A stretch of DNA of 64,000 nt. Source: Aliidiomarina haloalkalitolerans (GTDB lineage: Bacteria; Pseudomonadota; Gammaproteobacteria; Enterobacterales; Alteromonadaceae). Made by a program: the position numbers and the translations under genes. The stretch covers positions 806,001-870,000 of the forward strand of contig NZ_PIPI01000001.1 in assembly GCF_003987315.1 (NCBI RefSeq), written 5' to 3'. Numbering within the stretch: position 1 is the first letter of the stretch; every line of letters begins with the position of its first letter. Under the pieces are notes generated by a model that did no database searches, was not told the origin of the DNA, and saw only the letters and a program-made list of their open reading frames with translations. This document shows positions 8,331 to 38,548 of the stretch, piece by piece.

Positions 8331-9128
8331 CTACCACCCTATATCGGTTGTTGGTTGTGTTTGTGAACTTGGGACAATCCATTCTACTTTCGGAATACCA
8401 TATAGACGCCGAGGCGACGTGACTTCCTGCTGCCGTGTACGCAGGAATACCAGTAATGACTGTTCCGCATACGCTTCTTGAAAACGCACGGCGTCTTGCA
8501 GCGGAATGGCAACGGTTACTACATTCATACCGCCTCTTTGTTCACCTTCTTGCAAGCGGCCATCGATTGCCAACACTTCCAATGCCGACGCCAACAGCTT
8601 TGTGCCGCCAACAGCGTCCGTATAGAGATCAATCCGGTCGCCAATCTGCAGCGCGTTACCATGATGATCTTCGTCTCTAACTCGAAAGCTAAACGCCGTT
8701 TGCTGTTCGTTCAAGCGACTACTTAAACGGTGATCTTGATACGGCAACAAGTGAATACGCTGCAGCGGTCGGCCGGGCGCTAGCTCGCCAGCGAGATCGT
8801 TACGCAGCACGCGACCAATAATCGACTCAGCATCCTGTGCAAGTATTGCGTCAGCCGCAAGACCATCAGGATGAACCTGACGAACACGCATGTTTTTAGC
8901 GGTAAGTTGCTCCCCTGCGATCAATGCTTGTGCTGGCACCACAACGGCGACTCGTTCATTGGCAATTTGCAACGTTTGATACTCTCGGCGGTACTGTTGT
9001 TGCAAGTCCATCTCCGTTTGCCGAAGATAGTTCTGCAAGACAAACCATGCGAACAACGCCGCCAGCACTCCCACGAGCAACGGGATCAGCAGCCAGAGTT
9101 TACCTTTTAAGCCGGCAGCCAACTTCAT
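8331..9128 (-). CDS. rcpC: RcpC/CpaB Flp pilus assembly protein (SAF domain)
   Basis: This 265-residue protein has an N-terminal membrane anchor (about residues 7-30, LWLLIPLLVGVLAALFAWFVL). A SAF-type region follows (VVVPAQALIAGEQLTAKNMRVRQV...LRNDLAGELAPGRPL), then a GDRIDLYTDA segment, as in CpaB/RcpC. RcpC is a periplasmic partner of the secretin, proposed to contact peptidoglycan. ATG 9128 is chosen because GAGG lies 7 bases upstream and it overlaps the previous stop as ATGA; the frame open to 9158 is less likely. The rcpA start follows 5 bases after its stop. Confidence 0.85.
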   Translation of the reverse strand: MKLAAGLKGKLWLLIPLLVGVLAALFAWFVLQNYLRQTEMDLQQQYRREYQTLQIANERVAVVVPAQALIAGEQLTAKNMRVRQVHPDGLAADAILAQDAESIIGRVLRNDLAGELAPGRPLQRIHLLPYQDHRLSSRLNEQQTAFSFRVRDEDHHGNALQIGDRIDLYTDAVGGTKLLASALEVLAIDGRLQEGEQRGGMNVVTVAIPLQDAVRFQEAYAEQSLLVFLRTRQQEVTSPRRLYGIPKVEWIVPSSQTQPTTDIGW

Positions 9129-9742
9129 TCGCGAACCTCGAGCGTATGGGTTAGCCAAACGACACCCGGTTCCTGTTCCCAGCCTACCACTGAATAAACC
9201 CCTTGGTCGGTCTGGTAACTCAGGACAAAGCTCCCTTGATAGCGGTCATGGATATATGCCGGAGCAACCGCATTGGCCTGCATCTTATCGATCGCTGCAT
9301 AGTAGTGCGTTGCTAACGGTTGATTGGAAATCTCACTGCGGACTTCACCGCTTTGCGAACGATACACATAGACTTCATCACCATGATGTTCCGCATCGGT
9401 GAGTAGCGTCTCAGTCCACAGCAAGTTGTCGTCATGCCACATCAAGGTCAACATAAAGTTGTCACCTAAGCAATCAACTCGCAGCTCATCTGAGCTTGGC
9501 AGGATTAAGCAGTCTTGCACGCCTGCCATCAGTTCTAAAATTGGTTCATGACGCGATTCGAGCAGCCAAATTCTTACGTCGAGACCAAATACTTTGGCGA
9601 CGTCAATAATTTTCTCTGACACTAGAGGCCGCGGCAGATAACTCGGTCGTTCGGTTAAAAACTTTGCTTGCACAGCCCCACTTCCTGCACACAATACAAC
9701 GCCAAAGCTGAGCATGAGCGGATACAAAAATTGAATACGCAT
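9125..9742 (-). CDS. Exported protein of unknown function in tad operon
   Basis: This 205-residue protein is not recognised. It has a clear signal peptide (MRIQFLYPLMLSFGVVLCAGSGAVQA, probably cleaved at AxA). The mature part is soluble, acidic and rich in Trp and Leu, with two cysteines (QDCLIL and VDCLGD) that could form a periplasmic disulphide. It lies between the TadE-like gene and rcpC, coupled to rcpC by an ATGA overlap. That suggests an envelope role in pilus assembly, but this is inference from context only. Confidence 0.65.
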   Translation of the reverse strand: MRIQFLYPLMLSFGVVLCAGSGAVQAKFLTERPSYLPRPLVSEKIIDVAKVFGLDVRIWLLESRHEPILELMAGVQDCLILPSSDELRVDCLGDNFMLTLMWHDDNLLWTETLLTDAEHHGDEVYVYRSQSGEVRSEISNQPLATHYYAAIDKMQANAVAPAYIHDRYQGSFVLSYQTDQGVYSVVGWEQEPGVVWLTHTLEVRE

Positions 9743-9753
9743 GATTTGCTCCT

Positions 9754-10380
9754 TTAGTTACAATTGGCGTTTTGACAACGAGCATGGGCAGGAACGACAT
9801 CCACATCCACATGTCCGACGCGTAATTGGTCAGGGCTAAATTCGCGCGCAAACGGAATTAATCCCAACAGCGATTGAATCTCCTGAAAGCCAAGTTGGTT
9901 CAGAAACTCCGTGGTAGTCAGGGCTTTGGGCCTACTACTTAAGTGCGCTAAGCTCTGGGGCTGCCACGCATTACTTAGACGACTAAAGGTCAGCCAGGGT
10001 TGTTCGGACTCTTCATGCTGCAACTGAACAACAGCTAAGTTGTTGGTTGGTAGTGAAAAGCCACGTTGCGTACTAAGGATGTCCCAGACCGGCGCAATTA
10101 AGTTAGCAAAGGCGTAGTCGCTCGTGGTCCGATAATCAAGTTCATAGTCGTCACCCACCGGAAGTCGAAATTCTTTTTCATAATCTTCAAGTTCACGACT
10201 TTCGAGTCCAGCGGTCGCGCGCAAGGGGTGATCCGCCAATACCACAGGCAGCAACTGTTGTCCGCGCCAGCGCTTCGCTAAACTTTGCTCAACCTGTGGC
10301 ATGGACACCAGTAAGAGAAGCCCAAGTAAACTAATCGCAAGCGTAATTTCAACTAATGCCTGTCCAAAATTCCGTTTCAT
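9754..10380 (-). CDS. TadE-like minor pseudopilin
   Basis: This 208-residue protein starts MKRNFGQALVEITLAISLLGLLLLVSMPQVEQSL. This is a short basic leader, a Gly before a QALVE stretch with the conserved Glu, and one hydrophobic helix, the arrangement of TadE/TadF pseudopilins cut by a prepilin peptidase. The remainder is a soluble periplasmic domain with two C-terminal cysteines. TadE-type proteins are minor pilus components needed for assembly. The 4-base overlap with the upstream TadG-like gene indicates coupling. Sequence similarity beyond the N-terminus is not apparent, so the family is assigned by architecture and locus. Confidence 0.6.
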   Translation of the reverse strand: MKRNFGQALVEITLAISLLGLLLLVSMPQVEQSLAKRWRGQQLLPVVLADHPLRATAGLESRELEDYEKEFRLPVGDDYELDYRTTSDYAFANLIAPVWDILSTQRGFSLPTNNLAVVQLQHEESEQPWLTFSRLSNAWQPQSLAHLSSRPKALTTTEFLNQLGFQEIQSLLGLIPFAREFSPDQLRVGHVDVDVVPAHARCQNANCN

Positions 10381-30116: not shown

Positions 30117-31208
30117 ATGGGATTTAAATGCGGAATCGTTGGTTTACCCAACGTTGGAAAATCAACCCTCTTTAATGCTTTGACCAAAGCCGGCATCGAC
30201 GCTGCGAACTTCCCGTTCTGTACCATTGAGCCCAACACAGGCGTGGTGTCAGTACCAGATACACGCTTAACCGCATTGGCCGACATCGTCAAACCACAGA
30301 AGCTCATTCCAACGACGATGGAGTTCGTGGATATCGCGGGCTTGGTTAAGGGCGCATCGAAAGGTGAAGGTTTAGGTAACCAGTTTCTTGCCAACATTCG
30401 CGAAACCGATGCCATTGGCCACGTCGTGCGCTGCTTCGAAGACGACAATATTGTCCATGTTGCTGGTAAAGTGAATCCACTCGACGACGTCGACACCATC
30501 AATACCGAATTAGCGTTGGCAGACCTCGACTCGGTTGAAAAAGCAATTCACCGTCTTGGCAAAAAAGCCAAAGGTGGCGACAAGCAAGCGAAAGCCGAAA
30601 TGGACGTGCTTGAGAAGTTGTTACCGGCGTTATCAGAAGGTCAAATGGCGCGAGCTGTCGAGCTGACTGATGACGAGCGTAAAGTCATTCGTTCTTTTAA
30701 CTTATTGACGTTAAAGCCGACCATGTACATTTGTAACGTGAGTGAAGATGGTTTTGAGAATAACCCTCACCTCGAGACAGTACGCAAGATGGCCGAGAGC
30801 GAAAACGCTATTGTTGTACCAGTCTGTGCTGCAATTGAATCAGAAATTGCAGAGCTTGACGACGAAGACAAGGAAGAGTTCTTGTCGAGTATGGGTCTTG
30901 AAGAGCCCGGCTTAAATCGAGTCATCCGTGCTGGTTATGAACTGCTTAACTTGCACACCTATTTTACTGCGGGTGTGAAAGAAGTGCGGGCGTGGACGAT
31001 TAAAAAGAATTCGACCGCACCACAAGCGGCTGGCCGTATTCATACTGATTTCGAAAAAGGCTTTATTCGCGCTGAAGTCGTTGGTTACGACGACTTTATT
31101 AACCACAATGGCGAACAAGGTGCCAAAGACGCTGGTAAGTGGCGCTTAGAAGGCAAAGAGTACATTGTGAAAGATGGCGACGTTATTCATTTCCGCTTCA
31201 ACGTTTAA
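30117..31208 (+). CDS. ychF: Redox-regulated ATPase YchF (Obg-family P-loop NTPase)
   Basis: YchF/OLA1 is an Obg-related NTPase that prefers ATP, binds ribosomes and modulates stress responses. At 363 residues it equals the E. coli length. The P-loop [35 protein letters not shown] (switch II) and the C-terminal TGS-like domain ([31 protein letters not shown]) are intact. It follows pth closely and ends before a strong terminator. Confidence 0.97.
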
Positions 31209-31231
31209 ACACTCGACGTCAGAGTAAGTCC

Positions 31232-31269
31232 AAAAAAGCTGCCCTTCAAGTTGAATTGGCAGCTTTTTT
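31232..31269. terminator. Terminator between ychF and truncated hemoglobin gene
   Basis: AAAAAAGCTGCC pairs with GGCAGCTTTTTT, A/T-tracted on both sides, so bidirectional. The loop region TTCAAGTTGAATTG is identical to that of the fadE/S41 terminator. Confidence 0.88.
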
Positions 31270-31285
31270 ATTGCCTGCTAGATGC

Positions 31286-31738
31286 TTATCGCCCAACAAT
31301 CTCGTCATGCATCGGCGCCAACAGCGCAAGCAACCGGTTTTGAGCTGATATCGAAATATTCAAGTCGTCCATCGCTAACTGCAGCCCCTCCACCAGTGCA
31401 TTAAAGTCACTGCGTGTCACGCCCATGCCAGTATGCGATTTAACCATATCATCGCCCGTGTATGTACACGGACCACCGGCCAACTCACAAATTTGTTCAC
31501 TAAGTTTTTCGTGTAAACGCACAACATCAATATCCATAAAATGATGACGAATGCGGCGGTCTTCAGCGACGTTAAACAATAATTCTTCGACTAATTTTTC
31601 AATGCCGTCTGTACCACCTAAAGCGTCATACAAGGAATCATTTGCATGCGCTACCGTACTAGTTATCGGAGAAAAACCGATCGCAACTATGAAGATTAAG
31701 CCAACGAGATGAATACAACCTGTTTGTAATTTATTCAT
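31286..31738 (-). CDS. Exported group 1 truncated hemoglobin
   Basis: The N-terminus is a signal peptide (hydrophobic LVGLIFIVAIGF, probable cleavage AHA-ND). A 2-on-2 globin follows: LYDALGGTDGIEKLVEELL, the CD-region Phe in HHFMDID, ELAGGPCTYTG and the proximal His in MVKSHTGMGVTRSDFNALVE. Group 1 truncated globins bind O2 or NO, and several detoxify NO. Export to the periplasm is unusual, as is Phe at the expected B10 Tyr position (ELLFNVAED). A strong GGGGGAGGG ribosome site precedes ATG. It is the last gene of a four-gene unit. Confidence 0.87.
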   Translation of the reverse strand: MNKLQTGCIHLVGLIFIVAIGFSPITSTVAHANDSLYDALGGTDGIEKLVEELLFNVAEDRRIRHHFMDIDVVRLHEKLSEQICELAGGPCTYTGDDMVKSHTGMGVTRSDFNALVEGLQLAMDDLNISISAQNRLLALLAPMHDEIVGR

Positions 31739-31747
31739 ACCCTCCCC

Positions 31748-32590
31748 CTAAAACGACGCTTGCAAGTTCAAGTAATAGCCCGTTTGATTGTCGGCTCCTG
31801 CAATTGAACCTAAATCGAGAAATGCACCCACGAGAGCAACGCGCTTCGACGGAAACCAAGCAATGAAAGCTGACATTGCATCGTCCTCACGAGCAAAACT
31901 CAAATTATTCGGCTTTTGTCGGTACTCAAGTCCAATTGCCAACGAACGATGCAGAAACACACCCGTCGCCGCTTCAACACGAACATCATAACTATCATTC
32001 AAATCGCCCCCAAAGCCGAGCAGTCCAAACTGATTCGCTCGAGTGGCGCGAACCGTCACATTCGCAAGCCAAGTTCTGTCTAATGGTCCAGCAAGCCAAA
32101 CCTTGCTCGCTGCAATGTAAGCCTCCCAGTCATTCTCTCGCTGCGAACCAACGAGTTCAGGAATGTCATAACGGGTATTTCTTTTATAGAGCGCTCCAAC
32201 GCTGACTTGGGGCATTGCGGTGTAAATTAAATCGCCAGCAACGCGATATTTCATACCAAAAACTTGTTGGCGCAATTCGGCACCGAGATTTTCAAGCGTA
32301 AATTGTTGGGCCGCTATCGATATTTCGAAACGGTTTTTATATGAAAAACTTGCGGCCGTTACATCGAGGCGATAATCATCAACTTGTGCACGAGTCAGCG
32401 CGACCGTGCCACCCATTTCATCATCTTCCGTGTAACCACTAATCACCGCCCATGGGACTAATCCGCCACCGGCAGCTCCCTCCGTGGTGGTCGCTCCGCC
32501 CGTCGCCAATAAGCGCCCTTCGGCCGCTTCAGCTCCCCATGGGAGGAAAGCCAATAAAGCGCTGGTCATTACTATCTGTTTTATCTTCAT
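31748..32590 (-). CDS. DUF3034 family, predicted outer-membrane beta-barrel-like protein
   Basis: This 280-residue protein has a signal peptide (LLAFLPWGAEAAEG). Alternating hydrophobic strands run through most of the protein, ending in the aromatic YYLNLQASF, as in outer-membrane barrels. GGATTTEGAAGGGLVPWAVISGY, RATRANQFGLLGFGG and the FIAWFPSKR stretch are, as I recall them, DUF3034 signatures. The function of the family is unknown. It sits between the GGDEF/EAL gene (12 bases) and the truncated hemoglobin gene (9 bases), so it should be co-transcribed. Confidence 0.75.
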   Translation of the reverse strand: MKIKQIVMTSALLAFLPWGAEAAEGRLLATGGATTTEGAAGGGLVPWAVISGYTEDDEMGGTVALTRAQVDDYRLDVTAASFSYKNRFEISIAAQQFTLENLGAELRQQVFGMKYRVAGDLIYTAMPQVSVGALYKRNTRYDIPELVGSQRENDWEAYIAASKVWLAGPLDRTWLANVTVRATRANQFGLLGFGGDLNDSYDVRVEAATGVFLHRSLAIGLEYRQKPNNLSFAREDDAMSAFIAWFPSKRVALVGAFLDLGSIAGADNQTGYYLNLQASF

Positions 32591-32602
32591 AGAGATCCCA
32601 TT

Positions 32603-34921
32603 TTAACCCTGTGACTGCTTCAGCCATTCCGTTAATTCTGCTGCTGATATAGGACGGCTAAACCAATAACCTTGAAATACATCACAATCATACTGGCGCA
32701 GCAAATTTGCGGTTGCTTCATCTTCAATCCCTTCTGCAACAACTTTTAAGCCGAGCTGATGCGCCATTTGAATCGTCGACTGCACAATCGTTTGGTCGCC
32801 CTCATGTTGGCTCAAATTCATGATAAAGCTGCGGTCAACTTTTAATTCTGTTGCCGGCATGTCGCGCAATTGCGCTAACGATGAATAGCCAGTTCCGTAA
32901 TCATCAATGGCAACTTTAACCCCAGCGGACCTTAGTTTGCTGAGTTGCGCTAAGGCTTTCTCCGGTTCGCTGATTACTGCACTTTCAGTGACTTCGACGG
33001 TTAGCAAATCAGCCTGAACATTGGCTGCGGCGAGCGCACCAAAAACTTCATCAAGTAGTTGCGGTTCCATTAAGTCGCGAGCCGATAGATTAACCGAAAG
33101 TTGAAGTCCCGGCTGCACGACTTGCCAGCTTGCAAGTTGCTGAATGCTGCTATGCAGTACCCAACGGGTGATTGCAAAAATATTTCCTGATTGCTCTGCT
33201 AAGGGAATAAATTCAGCTGGACTGACAAAACCAAGTACCGGATCGTTCCAACGAATTAAAACTTCGACACTCAAGGTGTGTCCACTTTGACTATCAATCT
33301 GTGGTTGGTACACAAGAGAAAATCGTTTTGCTTCGATCGCTTGCGGGATGGCTGCTGAAATCGCCAATGTTCGCAAGTAAGGCTTATCTTCGCCCTCTTG
33401 ATATTCTGCAAAACTGCTCTTCATTTGCTTTGCCTTGTTTCGCGCAAATTGGGCTAAGCGAACCAATTCATCTCGAGAACTTGCCTGACGTGGTGCCTCC
33501 GCAGCTCCGGCGCTCAGTGTGATGCCGTAACTCACTTCCGCAACAATAACCGGTTCCGACGCCTGCTCGATCAACGACTTTAACTCGATCGCTGCGTGTG
33601 CCGTTGAGCCGTCATAAGTCAGAATGAATTCATCACCCTGTAATCGGAAAAGTTTGAAGCGATCGTCAGCTAATTGCTGTAAACGCTGAGAAAAAACTAC
33701 CAAAAGAGCGTCACACACACTGCGCCCAAACATCTCATTCAAGCGGCGGAAATTATCGAGATTTAAGACAATAACAGTCCAATCTTGTTGACTGACTAGA
33801 CGTTGCTCTGCAACCTCATGAAACGCCCGCTGGTTGGGTAAGCCGGTTAAGACGTCATGTTGTGACTGAAACCAGATTTTTTGTTCGCGATCTGCAATCG
33901 CATTTTGCATGCTATCGAGTGCAAGCGCTAAGAGGCCAATTTCATCGCGACCTTGGTGAGGGATTTTCTGCTCATACTTACCACGAGCAATAGCGTCTGA
34001 TACCTTTGCAAGGTTTCGTAGCGGCTGAACAAAGCGTCGACTCGCAATGAGTGTTACTGCAACTGTGATTAAAAGCGTTAAGATGACAATCGCCAACAGT
34101 TGCGTTCGCAAGACGGTAAAGGGTTCCGCGGCGGCAGTTTGACTTGCGGTCAGCAGAATATCGATAGGATATTCGGCCACATCGCTACTCCCACCACTTA
34201 ATGTCAACCAGCGTCCCGCTTTTGATTCTGCTTGAAAAAACAAGTCCAGTTCGTTTGCCATTAATGCCTGTTGCAGGTCATTTTGAATCTCTGCTTGAGC
34301 AGAAGAAATTACCTTAGGTTGTGCGGTATTTCGACCAATCACAAAATGCACATACGAATTCGTCAATTGTTGTAATTGTTCTGCAAGCGCACGATCAACA
34401 GCGAAACCTAACGTGAGCCAACCAAGTAAATGCGGCGCTCTTATCGGCACCCAAACCACTTGAAACAATTCACCCTCAGCAAGAATCATCACGCCGCCTT
34501 GCGCATGTTGCGCCGATCCGTCGAGGGTCATATAGCGATTTAATCGAGAACGTTCTTCAGTGCTCATTTCGTGACTAGCTAAGACCGTGCGTTGTTGCGG
34601 GTCGAGCAACATAACCAGTTCCGCATTTAAGCGTTGGGCGTGGTTTGTGAGGGCGGAAATAATAGTTTCTTCATCCTCACTAACTAACGCTTGGCGAAAT
34701 CCAAAATCATCGGCCAACACAAAAGCAGCCTGCCGCAGTTGCTGATCACGATAATCGATCACTTGCGTCAGGACTCGCTCACTTACCGCTAACTCACGAT
34801 CCGTGTGGACAGTAATACTTTGGTTCGTCGCAAACACAATGGCCACAACCACAACAAAAAGAGCGGCAGCAATGCAACTTGCGATAAGAAGGAGCAAACG
34901 GGTCCGAAAATTAATGACCAC
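32603..34921 (-). CDS. Membrane c-di-GMP phosphodiesterase: periplasmic sensor, HAMP, degenerate GGDEF, EAL
   Basis: Two membrane helices (about 8-30 and 272-294) bracket a periplasmic, Cache-like sensor of about 240 residues. A HAMP linker (295-345) follows, then a GGDEF domain whose signature is QGDEF (428-432), probably inactive as a cyclase. The EAL domain from about 520 has EVL (553-555), NLSARDL, TVEVTES, DDYGTGYSSL, the catalytic-Lys LKVDRSFI stretch, AEGIED and QGYWFSRP, so it looks active. It probably hydrolyses c-di-GMP in response to a periplasmic signal. GTG 34921 has AGGAG 8 bases upstream and lies within the end of the cupredoxin gene. Confidence 0.88.
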   Translation of the reverse strand: MVINFRTRLLLLIASCIAAALFVVVVAIVFATNQSITVHTDRELAVSERVLTQVIDYRDQQLRQAAFVLADDFGFRQALVSEDEETIISALTNHAQRLNAELVMLLDPQQRTVLASHEMSTEERSRLNRYMTLDGSAQHAQGGVMILAEGELFQVVWVPIRAPHLLGWLTLGFAVDRALAEQLQQLTNSYVHFVIGRNTAQPKVISSAQAEIQNDLQQALMANELDLFFQAESKAGRWLTLSGGSSDVAEYPIDILLTASQTAAAEPFTVLRTQLLAIVILTLLITVAVTLIASRRFVQPLRNLAKVSDAIARGKYEQKIPHQGRDEIGLLALALDSMQNAIADREQKIWFQSQHDVLTGLPNQRAFHEVAEQRLVSQQDWTVIVLNLDNFRRLNEMFGRSVCDALLVVFSQRLQQLADDRFKLFRLQGDEFILTYDGSTAHAAIELKSLIEQASEPVIVAEVSYGITLSAGAAEAPRQASSRDELVRLAQFARNKAKQMKSSFAEYQEGEDKPYLRTLAISAAIPQAIEAKRFSLVYQPQIDSQSGHTLSVEVLIRWNDPVLGFVSPAEFIPLAEQSGNIFAITRWVLHSSIQQLASWQVVQPGLQLSVNLSARDLMEPQLLDEVFGALAAANVQADLLTVEVTESAVISEPEKALAQLSKLRSAGVKVAIDDYGTGYSSLAQLRDMPATELKVDRSFIMNLSQHEGDQTIVQSTIQMAHQLGLKVVAEGIEDEATANLLRQYDCDVFQGYWFSRPISAAELTEWLKQSQG

Positions 34922-35597
34922 GCTGCAATCTCCTGCGAAAACGCGACTCTAATTCCGATTCTTCGCGTGCGGGAGGAGCTTCAATTGCAAGACGAAAAGG
35001 CTCTGTTAAGGCAATCTCAGTGAGTGCTATCGGTGCTAAACCGGCCGCTGCCATCCAAGGATGCCAGAGATACCAACCGTCAAAAACGTCGAGCATCGAC
35101 ACATCAATATTCCCCGCCTTATCACTTTCGTAAAATTGCCCAGAGCTACTGACAATAATATGACCAATCATGTCATCGTGAATATTACAGCCAACCACGA
35201 TGTAGCCAGCATTCGGGAAATCAATCGTTGGTGCGGTACTGTTGCCGTACAATTCCAAATCAAAAGAGCGTGCCGTTGAAAATGAAAAAACATGATGGCG
35301 AATAGAGTCACTGTTGGGAAACTTGACCGTGTCACCGGCTTGGATCATCAATACAGCTGGAACGAATTGCCGTTGTACTTGGTCCATGATGTGCTCTACC
35401 TGAGCTGTATTCTCGGCACTCGGCGAAGTATCAAACAAGACTGCACCGACTAACGGGGCATCGTTCGCATCAAGTAGTTGCAACTGTGAGCTATACTTTT
35501 GGTTCTCAATCTGGTCGTTCAATCCAATTGGGTTAGCAATCGGCTTGGCAACGAAAAAAAGGGCAAGCACCAAGGTAGCAGCCGTTAATTTATTCAA
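34911..35597 (-). CDS. Exported cupredoxin-like (plastocyanin/methylamine-utilisation type) protein
   Basis: The mature protein contains a cupredoxin region with GDTVKFPNSDSIRHHVFSF and YIVVGCNIHDDMIGHIIV. The His, Cys, His and Met needed for a type 1 copper site are all present (RHH; C-x2-H-x2-M). The N-terminus is a signal peptide. The best start is TTG 35597 (MNKLTAATLVLALFFVA) with GGAG 9 bases upstream; the frame continues to a GTG at 35630 without ribosome site. Such proteins are usually small electron carriers or copper sensors. It is first in the unit with the EAL, DUF3034 and globin genes, overlapping the EAL start by 11 bases. Confidence 0.82.
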   Translation of the reverse strand: MNKLTAATLVLALFFVAKPIANPIGLNDQIENQKYSSQLQLLDANDAPLVGAVLFDTSPSAENTAQVEHIMDQVQRQFVPAVLMIQAGDTVKFPNSDSIRHHVFSFSTARSFDLELYGNSTAPTIDFPNAGYIVVGCNIHDDMIGHIIVSSSGQFYESDKAGNIDVSMLDVFDGWYLWHPWMAAAGLAPIALTEIALTEPFRLAIEAPPAREESELESRFRRRLQRGH

Positions 35598-35751
35598 TTC
35601 GTTGAACTCCGAGGTCAATAAAACGCTCACACGTTTCTGAAAACATTATGTGATAAGCTAAATGCAAACACCTATAGACTGCAAATAATTCTTTTTCCTA
35701 TTTTTATGACTATGGTTTATGAATCGCATCATTAAACGGAGTGAAGGTGAC

Positions 35752-38021: not shown

Positions 38022-38098
38022 GGCTACGTAGCTCAGTTGGTTAGAGCACATCACTCATAATGATGGGGTCGCAGGTTCGAATCCCGCCGTAGCCACCA
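38022..38098 (+). tRNA. tRNA-Met (CAT), elongator type
   Basis: 77 bases including encoded CCA. GGCTACG pairs with CGTAGCC. The anticodon loop CTCATAA carries CAT, and the T-loop is GGTTCGAATCC. It is nearly identical to E. coli metT. First of five tRNAs. Confidence 0.96.
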
Positions 38099-38121
38099 AC
38101 TGATTCACTTCGTTTTTATGG

Positions 38122-38206
38122 GCGGGAGTGGTGGAATTGGTAGACACGCTGGATTTAGGTTCCAGTGCCTCACGGCGTGAGAGTTCGAGTCTCTCCTTCC
38201 GCACCA
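38122..38206 (+). tRNA. tRNA-Leu (TAG)
   Basis: 85 bases including encoded CCA, with the long class II variable arm (TGCCTCACGGCGT). The acceptor GCGGGAG pairs with CTTCCGC including a G-U pair, and the anticodon loop is ATTTAGG with TAG. Confidence 0.96.
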
Positions 38207-38232
38207 AAAACGAAATGATAAAGAACGTCAGT

Positions 38233-38307
38233 TGGGGTATAGCCAAGCGGTAAGGCAGCGGGTTTTGATCCCGCCATTCCCAGGTTCGAATCCTGGTACC
38301 CCAGCCA
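38233..38307 (+). tRNA. tRNA-Gln (TTG), copy 1
   Basis: 75 bases including encoded CCA. TGGGGTA pairs with TACCCCA, and the anticodon loop TTTTGAT carries TTG. It is identical to the next copy. Confidence 0.96.
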
Positions 38308-38365
38308 CTTTCTGTCCGAGCGCGTTCCATGACACTATGGCACTTCAGCAAGTAAGATCTTCTGC

Positions 38366-38440
38366 TGGGGTATAGCCAAGCGGTAAGGCAGCGGGTTTTG
38401 ATCCCGCCATTCCCAGGTTCGAATCCTGGTACCCCAGCCA
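38366..38440 (+). tRNA. tRNA-Gln (TTG), copy 2
   Basis: 75 bases, base-for-base identical to the copy 133 bp upstream. The spacers are not alike, so only the gene and not a larger block is duplicated or kept identical by conversion. Confidence 0.96.
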
Positions 38441-38461
38441 TTTAGTCCGAAGCATCGAGTT

Positions 38462-38548
38462 GCGGTGGTGGCGGAATTGGTAGACGCGCTAGCTTCAGGT
38501 GCTAGTGTCCGAAAGGATGTGTGGGTTCGAGTCCCACCCTCCGCACCA
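38462..38548 (+). tRNA. tRNA-Leu (CAG)
   Basis: 87 bases including encoded CCA, with a class II variable arm. GCGGTGG pairs with the terminal CCTCCGC with slight mismatching, and the anticodon loop TTCAGGT carries CAG. Last of the cluster; no clear terminator follows. Confidence 0.95.

Follow-up and report, generated by a model that had tools for sequence, protein, structure and literature searches.

The window analyzed here is a stretch of 64,000 nucleotides from Aliidiomarina haloalkalitolerans (contig NZ_PIPI01000001.1 of assembly GCF_003987315.1, positions 806,001 to 870,000), whose genome comprises 2.68 Mb; by locus, the closest named relatives are Idiomarina, with 82% identity. Four open reading frames (ORFs) on the minus strand, spanning 31286–35597, encode a cupredoxin, a membrane receptor of dCache-HAMP-GGDEF-EAL architecture, a DUF3034 protein and a group 1 truncated haemoglobin (Table 1). 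The receptor is a predicted cyclic di-GMP (c-di-GMP) phosphodiesterase. The cupredoxin and receptor ORFs overlap by 11 bases, and gaps of 12 and 9 bases separate the receptor from DUF3034 and DUF3034 from the globin. Four consecutive genes with gaps or overlaps of −11 to 12 bases had been listed by the first-pass annotation, made from the sequence alone, and the ORFs confirm this layout. We infer that the four genes form one operon read as one transcript. The cupredoxin ORF stays open upstream to a GTG at 35630.

Table 1. Features of the four-gene locus (window positions).
Feature	Position	Strand	Start, basis
Cupredoxin (type 1 copper protein), exported	34911–35597	−	Start TTG; His/Cys/His/Met set, PDB profile matches, hydrophobic N-terminus, names of relatives
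Membrane receptor dCache-HAMP-GGDEF(QGDEF)-EAL, predicted c-di-GMP phosphodiesterase	32603–34921	−	Start GTG; Pfam, catalytic EAL motifs
Part of the receptor: transmembrane helix, periplasmic dCache sensor domain, second transmembrane helix	34052–34921	−	
DUF3034, predicted 12-stranded outer-membrane beta-barrel with Gly-rich N-terminal segment	31748–32590	−	
Exported group 1 truncated haemoglobin, apolar distal pocket, invariant Cys84/Cys91	31286–31738	−	PF01152, signal-like N-terminus
Terminator-like hairpin directly 3′ of the globin gene	~31231–31270	−	13 pairs and U tract; folding of 31215–31285

With DUF3034 as the query, a contig search returned 54 loci from alpha-, beta- and gammaproteobacteria. 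After the loci from related genomes and the window were included and 3 duplicates were removed, 87 distinct DUF3034 loci were compared. The globin was found in 80 of them, the cupredoxin in 74, the sensor domain (within 6 kb) in 62 and all four genes in 61; all four together with an EAL domain lay within 6 kb in 51. Excluding the 12 loci with less than 3.5 kb of flank on one side left 75, with the globin in 70, the cupredoxin in 67, the sensor in 56 and all four in 55. ORFs were called mechanically, and genes may be missed at loci of high G+C content (L024 and L030 may hide a cupredoxin). The co-occurrence of the four genes is far beyond chance, and the conserved neighborhood that had been proposed as a check was thus clearly found. 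In the genus of the window it is all-or-none, with all four genes in 13 of 17 cases, including the broken copies of G002, and none in the other 4.

The gene order varies. The order cupredoxin–receptor–DUF3034–globin occurs in Idiomarina, Pseudoalteromonas and others, and DUF3034–globin–cupredoxin–receptor in Achromobacter and Rhodanobacter; in several metagenome-assembled genomes (MAGs) and two further genomes DUF3034 is divergent from globin–cupredoxin–receptor. Thirteen plasmid records were matched, four of which were examined. One Caballeronia plasmid carries the annotations DUF3034 family protein, group 1 truncated hemoglobin, methylamine utilization protein and EAL domain-containing protein, and on a second one a short cache-domain protein replaces the EAL protein. 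The plasmid of the alphaproteobacterium Novosphingobium carries the same four genes, the cupredoxin being annotated as a carboxypeptidase regulatory-like domain-containing protein, and the Comamonas plasmid carries the cupredoxin and EAL protein alone, adjoining a DUF4394 protein.

The cupredoxin scored 19.4 bits with Pfam Cupredoxin_1, under the cut-off of 27. The ordered ligand set His/Cys/His/Met of a type 1 copper site is complete in 97 of 104 distinct homologues, the remaining rows being four split fragments and three in which the axial Met is replaced by Ser. A PDB search with the family profile matched cupredoxins (E 1.3e-7), namely the CuNiR cupredoxin domain and amicyanin, in agreement with the type 1 copper protein with all four ligands that the first-pass annotation had recognized. 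The N-terminus of the window protein is hydrophobic, and relatives in plasmid records mostly carry the name “methylamine utilization protein”. The three Ser variants (L128, L129 and L130), the sole ligand changes among the 104 rows, pair with longer GGDEF-EAL receptors (frames of 926, 1061 and 918 residues), and a PAS domain was confirmed in L128.

The receptor matched EAL, GGDEF, dCache_3 and HAMP (256.7, 85.3, 60.9 and 49 bits), dCache_3 being the only sensor-domain match listed by Pfam. Its EAL domain contains E553 (in EVL), N611, E643/E646, D673–D674, K694 and E730, which we take to be the catalytic residues. E553 is kept in 67 of 68 distinct rows, with one gap; these rows include some neighboring GGDEF-EAL proteins, and the other motifs were judged from the 14 commonest forms. 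With its EAL match and conserved catalytic motifs the receptor has the hallmarks of a c-di-GMP phosphodiesterase, and hydrolysis by the EAL domain is its predicted output. The GGDEF signature reads QGDEF, which departs from the GG[D/E]EF of active diguanylate cyclases, and over 72 rows it is heterogeneous (LGGDEF is commonest, with 22). The degenerate domain is probably regulatory. As judged from Pfam and motifs, the earlier description of a membrane phosphodiesterase with intact EAL motifs and GGDEF degraded to QGDEF holds.

The periplasmic domain of the receptor was modelled because a PDB search gave no convincing sequence relative of known structure, and the fold of DUF3034 was predicted in the same way for the same reason; the fold lists may lack families, and either protein could have a relative outside them. 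The sensor models as a dCache fold, with LuxQ as the best structural match and LuxP–LuxQ complexes among the matches. No CXXCH motif, as in sCache_heme domains, occurs anywhere in the translated receptor, and no CHASE4 match, as in CHASE4 metal sensors, was found in it with Pfam. Elsewhere CHASE4 exceeded its cut-off in L133 but fell short of it in L015 and L016. Nor did Pfam find in the receptor the MHYT domain, the mark of a copper-linked GGDEF-EAL family.

The output domain next to the constant cupredoxin changes from locus to locus. Besides GGDEF-EAL, we found PAS-GGDEF-EAL (L128), a histidine kinase (L138), a class III cyclase (L139, L140 and, by similarity, L141) and a Ser/Thr kinase (L105, L131 and L133). 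The labels of L105, L131, L133, L138 and L139–L141 were set by hand, and all these loci were scanned with Pfam except L141, which takes its label from L140. In a tree of 88 distinct sensor rows the outputs require at least four changes when two artefact rows, a broken copy and one at a contig end, are omitted and one row is relabelled by hand (the raw count is seven); the tree was built quickly, and 26 of its 85 inner branches are open. It is mainly because the cupredoxin stays while the output domain changes that we regard it as the partner of the receptor. In Rhodanobacter and Oleiagrimonas the Cache protein has only a short tail beyond the second helix and no output domain. It may be a receptor without output, or else its signal may be passed via another protein. 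Cache receptors without GGDEF-EAL occur at L015–L021, L025 and L033 (Rhodanobacter, Oleiagrimonas and unclassified MAGs); the label “no output” denotes frame length, and sequences were inspected for four (L015, L016, L020 and L033).

DUF3034 belongs to its family (PF11231) with 331.6 bits against a cut-off of 25. No convincing sequence relation to known structures was found in PDB. The protein models as a 12-stranded outer-membrane barrel, with fold likeness to FapF, KdgM/NanC and other 12-strand barrels. The barrel-like character assigned to it earlier is thus retained, and its predicted place is corrected to the outer membrane, so that the unit would span both membranes and not be periplasmic alone.

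The globin scored 53.6 bits with Bac_globin PF01152 (cut-off 21) and is the single match of the globin profile in its genome at E 1e-5. With its signal-like N-terminus, this bears out the group 1 truncated hemoglobin carrying a signal peptide of the first-pass annotation. A hydrophobic stretch precedes the globin domain in all 81 distinct N-termini, 30 of which show a lipobox-like motif. Leu54, Leu75, Leu79 and His102 correspond to B10, E7, E11 and F8, and E7 and E11 were cross-checked against what we take to be the numbering of M. tuberculosis HbN. The assignment followed the numbering of S. benthica HbN (PMC11904497, available text) and an ungapped alignment with the PDB matches. All 80 distinct homologues keep His102, Cys84 and Cys91. 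B10 is I, L, M, V or A in 79, Gln in one and Tyr in none; E7 is L, F, I or V in 78 and Tyr in two; at E11, 79 have an apolar residue and one has Gln. Despite the otherwise apolar pocket, E14 (residue 82; window 31367–31738) is polar or Tyr (Q/H/Y) in 79 of the 80. The Tyr B10 and Gln E7/E11 hydrogen-bond network of TrHbN-1, the type with high O2 affinity, is lacking, and the hydrophobic B10, E7 and E11 place the globin in TrHbN-2 as defined in the accessible text of PMC11904497. With F8 His invariant, the globin is expected to bind haem, though outside the usual Tyr/Gln network. A disulfide between Cys84 and Cys91 probably stabilizes the exported protein.

The cluster consists of two sub-modules, globin with DUF3034 and cupredoxin with receptor, each of which also occurs without the other. 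Among 58 related genomes, our own included, DUF3034 was found in 25. Globins of more than 100 bits were confined to these 25, present in each and never more than 0.3 kb away; five other globin matches scored at most 74.8 bits. The cupredoxin and the sensor were found in the identical 32 genomes, with a cupredoxin match within 3 kb of 35 of the 39 sensor matches and a sensor beside 35 of the 42 cupredoxin matches. For a class sample of 229 genomes, two of which (G000 and G017) also belong to the set of relatives, a cupredoxin lay within 3 kb of 20 of the 23 sensor matches, one of the other three being at a contig end. In reverse, a sensor stood beside only 20 of 63 cupredoxin matches but beside 17 of the 18 exceeding 100 bits; the others, all below 90 bits, look like a wider cupredoxin family. 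These 3 kb counts were read by hand from tables. DUF3034 occurred in 12 of the 229 genomes, with the globin adjacent in eight, about 10 kb off in one (G176) and absent in three, one of which is a contig-end fragment; G230 has a 134-bit globin and no DUF3034. It should be noted that L002–L055 were found via DUF3034 similarity and many G loci via DUF3034 or cupredoxin, which biases co-occurrence in the table of the sensor tree; the class sample and the cupredoxin and sensor searches in the 58 relatives are less biased.

Sixteen further cupredoxin loci from the relatives (L112–L127) have neither DUF3034 nor the globin nearby, and in 12 of them (L112–L115 and L119–L126) a receptor stands beside the cupredoxin. 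This parallel unit comprises the cupredoxin and a dCache-HAMP-GGDEF-EAL protein, followed in 10 of the 12 by a gene of about 400–450 codons; two of six such genes scanned matched the porin family BBP2 just below the cut-off. Examples are L112:5733–9962 and L125:1874–6138, and the host genomes often carry the full cluster too. At L105, where DUF3034 is present but no globin lies next to it, the receptor is followed by a gene matching Porin_5.

Several single loci add further observations. In Marinomonas (L031, L032, L038, L040 and L041) the order is cupredoxin–DUF3034–globin with no Cache receptor nearby; in L032, the only one of these scanned with Pfam, genes for a response regulator, a histidine kinase and a solute-binding protein lie upstream of the cluster, and one for an ArsP-type permease lies downstream of it. 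Signalling genes adjoining the cluster encode a PilZ/YcgR protein (L028:12613–13527) and a chemoreceptor (L011:9375–10994), and GGDEF-profile matches lie upstream of the cupredoxin in L012 and L013. Broken copies of the cupredoxin, sensor or DUF3034 with internal stops or split frames (L029/L100, L101 and L031) reflect decay or assembly error. Two Rhodospirillales MAGs (L051 and L052) have DUF3034 without the other three genes; in L051 it adjoins allophanate hydrolase and biotin-dependent carboxylase genes, and the frames of L052 match in size.

Starting from the observed gene content, conservation and motifs and from the predicted folds, we suggest the following scheme. The four genes would make up a single operon encoding a sensory unit that spans the envelope, in which the cupredoxin acts as co-receptor and the receptor lowers c-di-GMP, a proposal to which we give an even chance. 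The globin and the DUF3034 barrel would be the input side of the window's version. The barrel may admit or anchor something at the outer membrane, and the exported globin would bind a haem ligand in its apolar pocket. Since this pocket cannot hydrogen-bond O2 in the usual way, binding of NO (nitric oxide) or some other redox ligand is more probable than stable storage of O2, and a haem-ligand or redox signal is the one we favor. The cupredoxin and the globin would probably swap an electron or touch. Taking pairings and folds together at their simplest, the outer-membrane part (barrel and globin) and the inner-membrane part (cupredoxin and receptor) would meet at the cupredoxin. The LuxQ-like periplasmic domain would dock with and read the state of this dedicated partner, not just a free small molecule, a view we take because the pairing survives output-domain swaps and the fold resembles that of LuxQ. 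The output of the dCache-HAMP-GGDEF-EAL receptor would be c-di-GMP hydrolysis. Consequent on this, local c-di-GMP would change, most likely fall, favoring departure from the surface. More tentatively, with confidence somewhat short of even, we propose that a blue-copper protein serves as dedicated periplasmic co-receptor for dCache receptors whose outputs are interchangeable (c-di-GMP, class III cyclase, histidine kinase and Ser/Thr kinase), which would be a new class of transmembrane signalling; the window's subfamily would add an exported globin and an outer-membrane barrel that relay haem-ligand or redox chemistry at the surface to c-di-GMP.

A functional link among the genes of the cluster is well supported. 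Several observations nevertheless weigh against the co-receptor scheme. Cupredoxin copies without a Cache receptor exist at L116, L117, L118 and L127. Twelve loci, among them L054 with its short flank, lack a receptor within 6 kb but retain the other three genes, so the trio of DUF3034, globin and cupredoxin may also have a role of its own if the receptor was not missed by the search. At the receptor-less locus L044 (Aquabacterium), a CusB/HlyD-type membrane-fusion gene (8886–10100) directly follows DUF3034, which would suit transport. In the 58 relatives NnrS (PF05940) does not track the cluster, occurring in 12 of the 25 genomes with DUF3034 and 21 of the 33 without it, and NirK exceeded the cut-off in three genomes, one of which has the cluster. 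As a side observation, a gene of about 410–420 codons directly follows the receptor-less cupredoxin in L117 and L127. The first-pass annotation had proposed that the copper and haem proteins relay a redox species to the sensor and thereby lower c-di-GMP. This proposal is partly borne out and becomes more specific here: the functional link and the phosphodiesterase output are supported, and a connection with NO respiration is not, as NnrS and NirK do not co-occur with the cluster.

It is conceivable, though unlikely, that DUF3034, globin and cupredoxin form an envelope redox or metal device for the import, export, oxidation, detoxification or storage of copper, haem, NO or peroxide, with the receptor as a regulator that accompanies it in many lineages and not a reader. 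The many cupredoxin–sensor pairs lacking DUF3034 and globin would be left unexplained by an enzymatic role of the trio alone, and no recurring detoxification or uptake gene was seen among the selected neighbors scanned with Pfam. We likewise see only a modest chance that the unit is an NO sensor for biofilm dispersal, in which the globin would capture NO at its haem, the cupredoxin would hold that haem in the reduced form or pass on its state, and the phosphodiesterase would lower c-di-GMP. The apolar B10, E7 and E11 in 78–79 of 80 homologues and the retained proximal His suit such a sensor, and NO-binding Cache domains make a periplasmic NO input to such outputs plausible (PMC12889525, a preprint, available text), but the NnrS and NirK distributions speak against it, and apolar TrHbN-2 pockets are also expected to bind O2 with low affinity (accessible text of PMC11904497).

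Rather unlikely in our judgment is a plain copper sensor, in which the cupredoxin would take up copper in the periplasm and switch the receptor once in its holo form, while globin and barrel would have a protective or accessory part. The cupredoxin does accompany the receptor across all output types seen. Type 1 sites, however, are usually electron carriers that grip copper tightly; the joint inheritance of globin and DUF3034 with the cupredoxin would be left unexplained, and no copper-resistance gene was recognized in the selected neighbors scanned, save for the match in L044. The periplasmic domain of another GGDEF-EAL protein, from P. aeruginosa PA14, binds copper (PMC13277305), and we keep copper as a candidate signal because Cache-like CHASE4 domains of c-di-GMP proteins are reported to sense iron, heme and copper (PMC10904736 and PMC13277305, in the parts of the texts available). 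Finally, an ordinary one-component Cache phosphodiesterase that binds a small molecule directly, with passenger genes on one transcript, would fit a domain that is a normal dCache by fold and Pfam, yet it is very improbable given a cupredoxin pairing that outlasts gene-order rearrangement and output replacement in distant proteobacteria.

Around the locus, the 71-base stretch 31215–31285 folds with −22 kcal/mol (z-score −3.34). The hairpin is possibly a shared terminator, since a convergent plus-strand ORF ends at 31208; it was revealed by folding and overlooked by the terminator scan, probably because the loop limit of the scan is 8. Across the region the scan gave 6 terminator-like sites (5.3 expected) and 4 sigma-70 sites (6.0 expected). 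No consistent promoter motif was seen upstream of the cupredoxin in a by-eye comparison of 17 Idiomarina-type regions, two of them identical. Five tRNA genes (Met, Leu, Gln, Gln and Leu) lie at 38022–38548 on the plus strand and account for an odd minus-strand ORF at 38055–38441.

To our knowledge, the input is known for only part of the Cache-domain c-di-GMP receptors, many having none assigned, and few roles have been established for exported globins. The conserved cluster offers DUF3034 a function, and it offers both such a receptor and an exported globin a concrete input. Should the cupredoxin indeed be a co-receptor, copper and redox proteins would join periplasmic binding proteins as readers of signals before several unrelated outputs, and this would suggest that proteins of this type now labelled “methylamine utilization protein” in databases are parts of signalling systems. 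In agreement with the first-pass annotation, no description of the four-gene unit was found in the literature, a weak absence given that most subscription journals lay outside the search; it is also not described in the available parts of PMC3770913 and PMC2631029. Among the papers searched, two mention DUF3034, in neither case in the title or abstract. As far as searched, the component families are known, and their assembly and the cupredoxin–receptor pairing with swapped outputs are undescribed.

Several known systems resemble parts of the unit. The predicted DUF3034 fold is like that of FapF, KdgM/NanC and other 12-strand outer-membrane barrels, from which the protein differs in sequence, as stated above, and in its partners. 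The globin resembles TrHbN-2 globins such as HbN of Shewanella benthica (PMC11904497), which are group 1 truncated with hydrophobic B10, E7 and E11, and its best PDB matches align like SbHbN; unlike these, it is exported, has invariant Cys84 and Cys91 and is part of an operon that is conserved. Neither “periplasm” nor “signal peptide” is used in the SbHbN paper. The sCache_heme NO sensors (PMC12889525) likewise couple periplasmic haem-based NO sensing to GGDEF/EAL, kinase or methyl-accepting chemotaxis protein outputs, as far as the available text goes. Their haem, however, is covalently held inside the Cache domain via CXXCH, whereas the window encodes a globin as a haem protein apart from the receptor; the terms “cupredoxin” and “globin” are both absent from that text. 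In the IsmP–ImcA iron module and the CHASE4 heme and copper sensors of P. aeruginosa PA14 (PMC10904736 and PMC13277305) the domain itself binds the metal, and in the available main texts the word “cupredoxin” is absent and no globin or barrel partner was found. A further parallel is LuxP–LuxQ, the autoinducer 2 receptor of Vibrio, in which the membrane receptor uses its periplasmic domain, of a fold that the window sensor is predicted to share, to read a second protein in the periplasm. It differs in that the partner in the window is a cupredoxin and not a LuxP-type binding protein, that the output is an EAL domain, and that an exported globin and a putative outer-membrane barrel are added.

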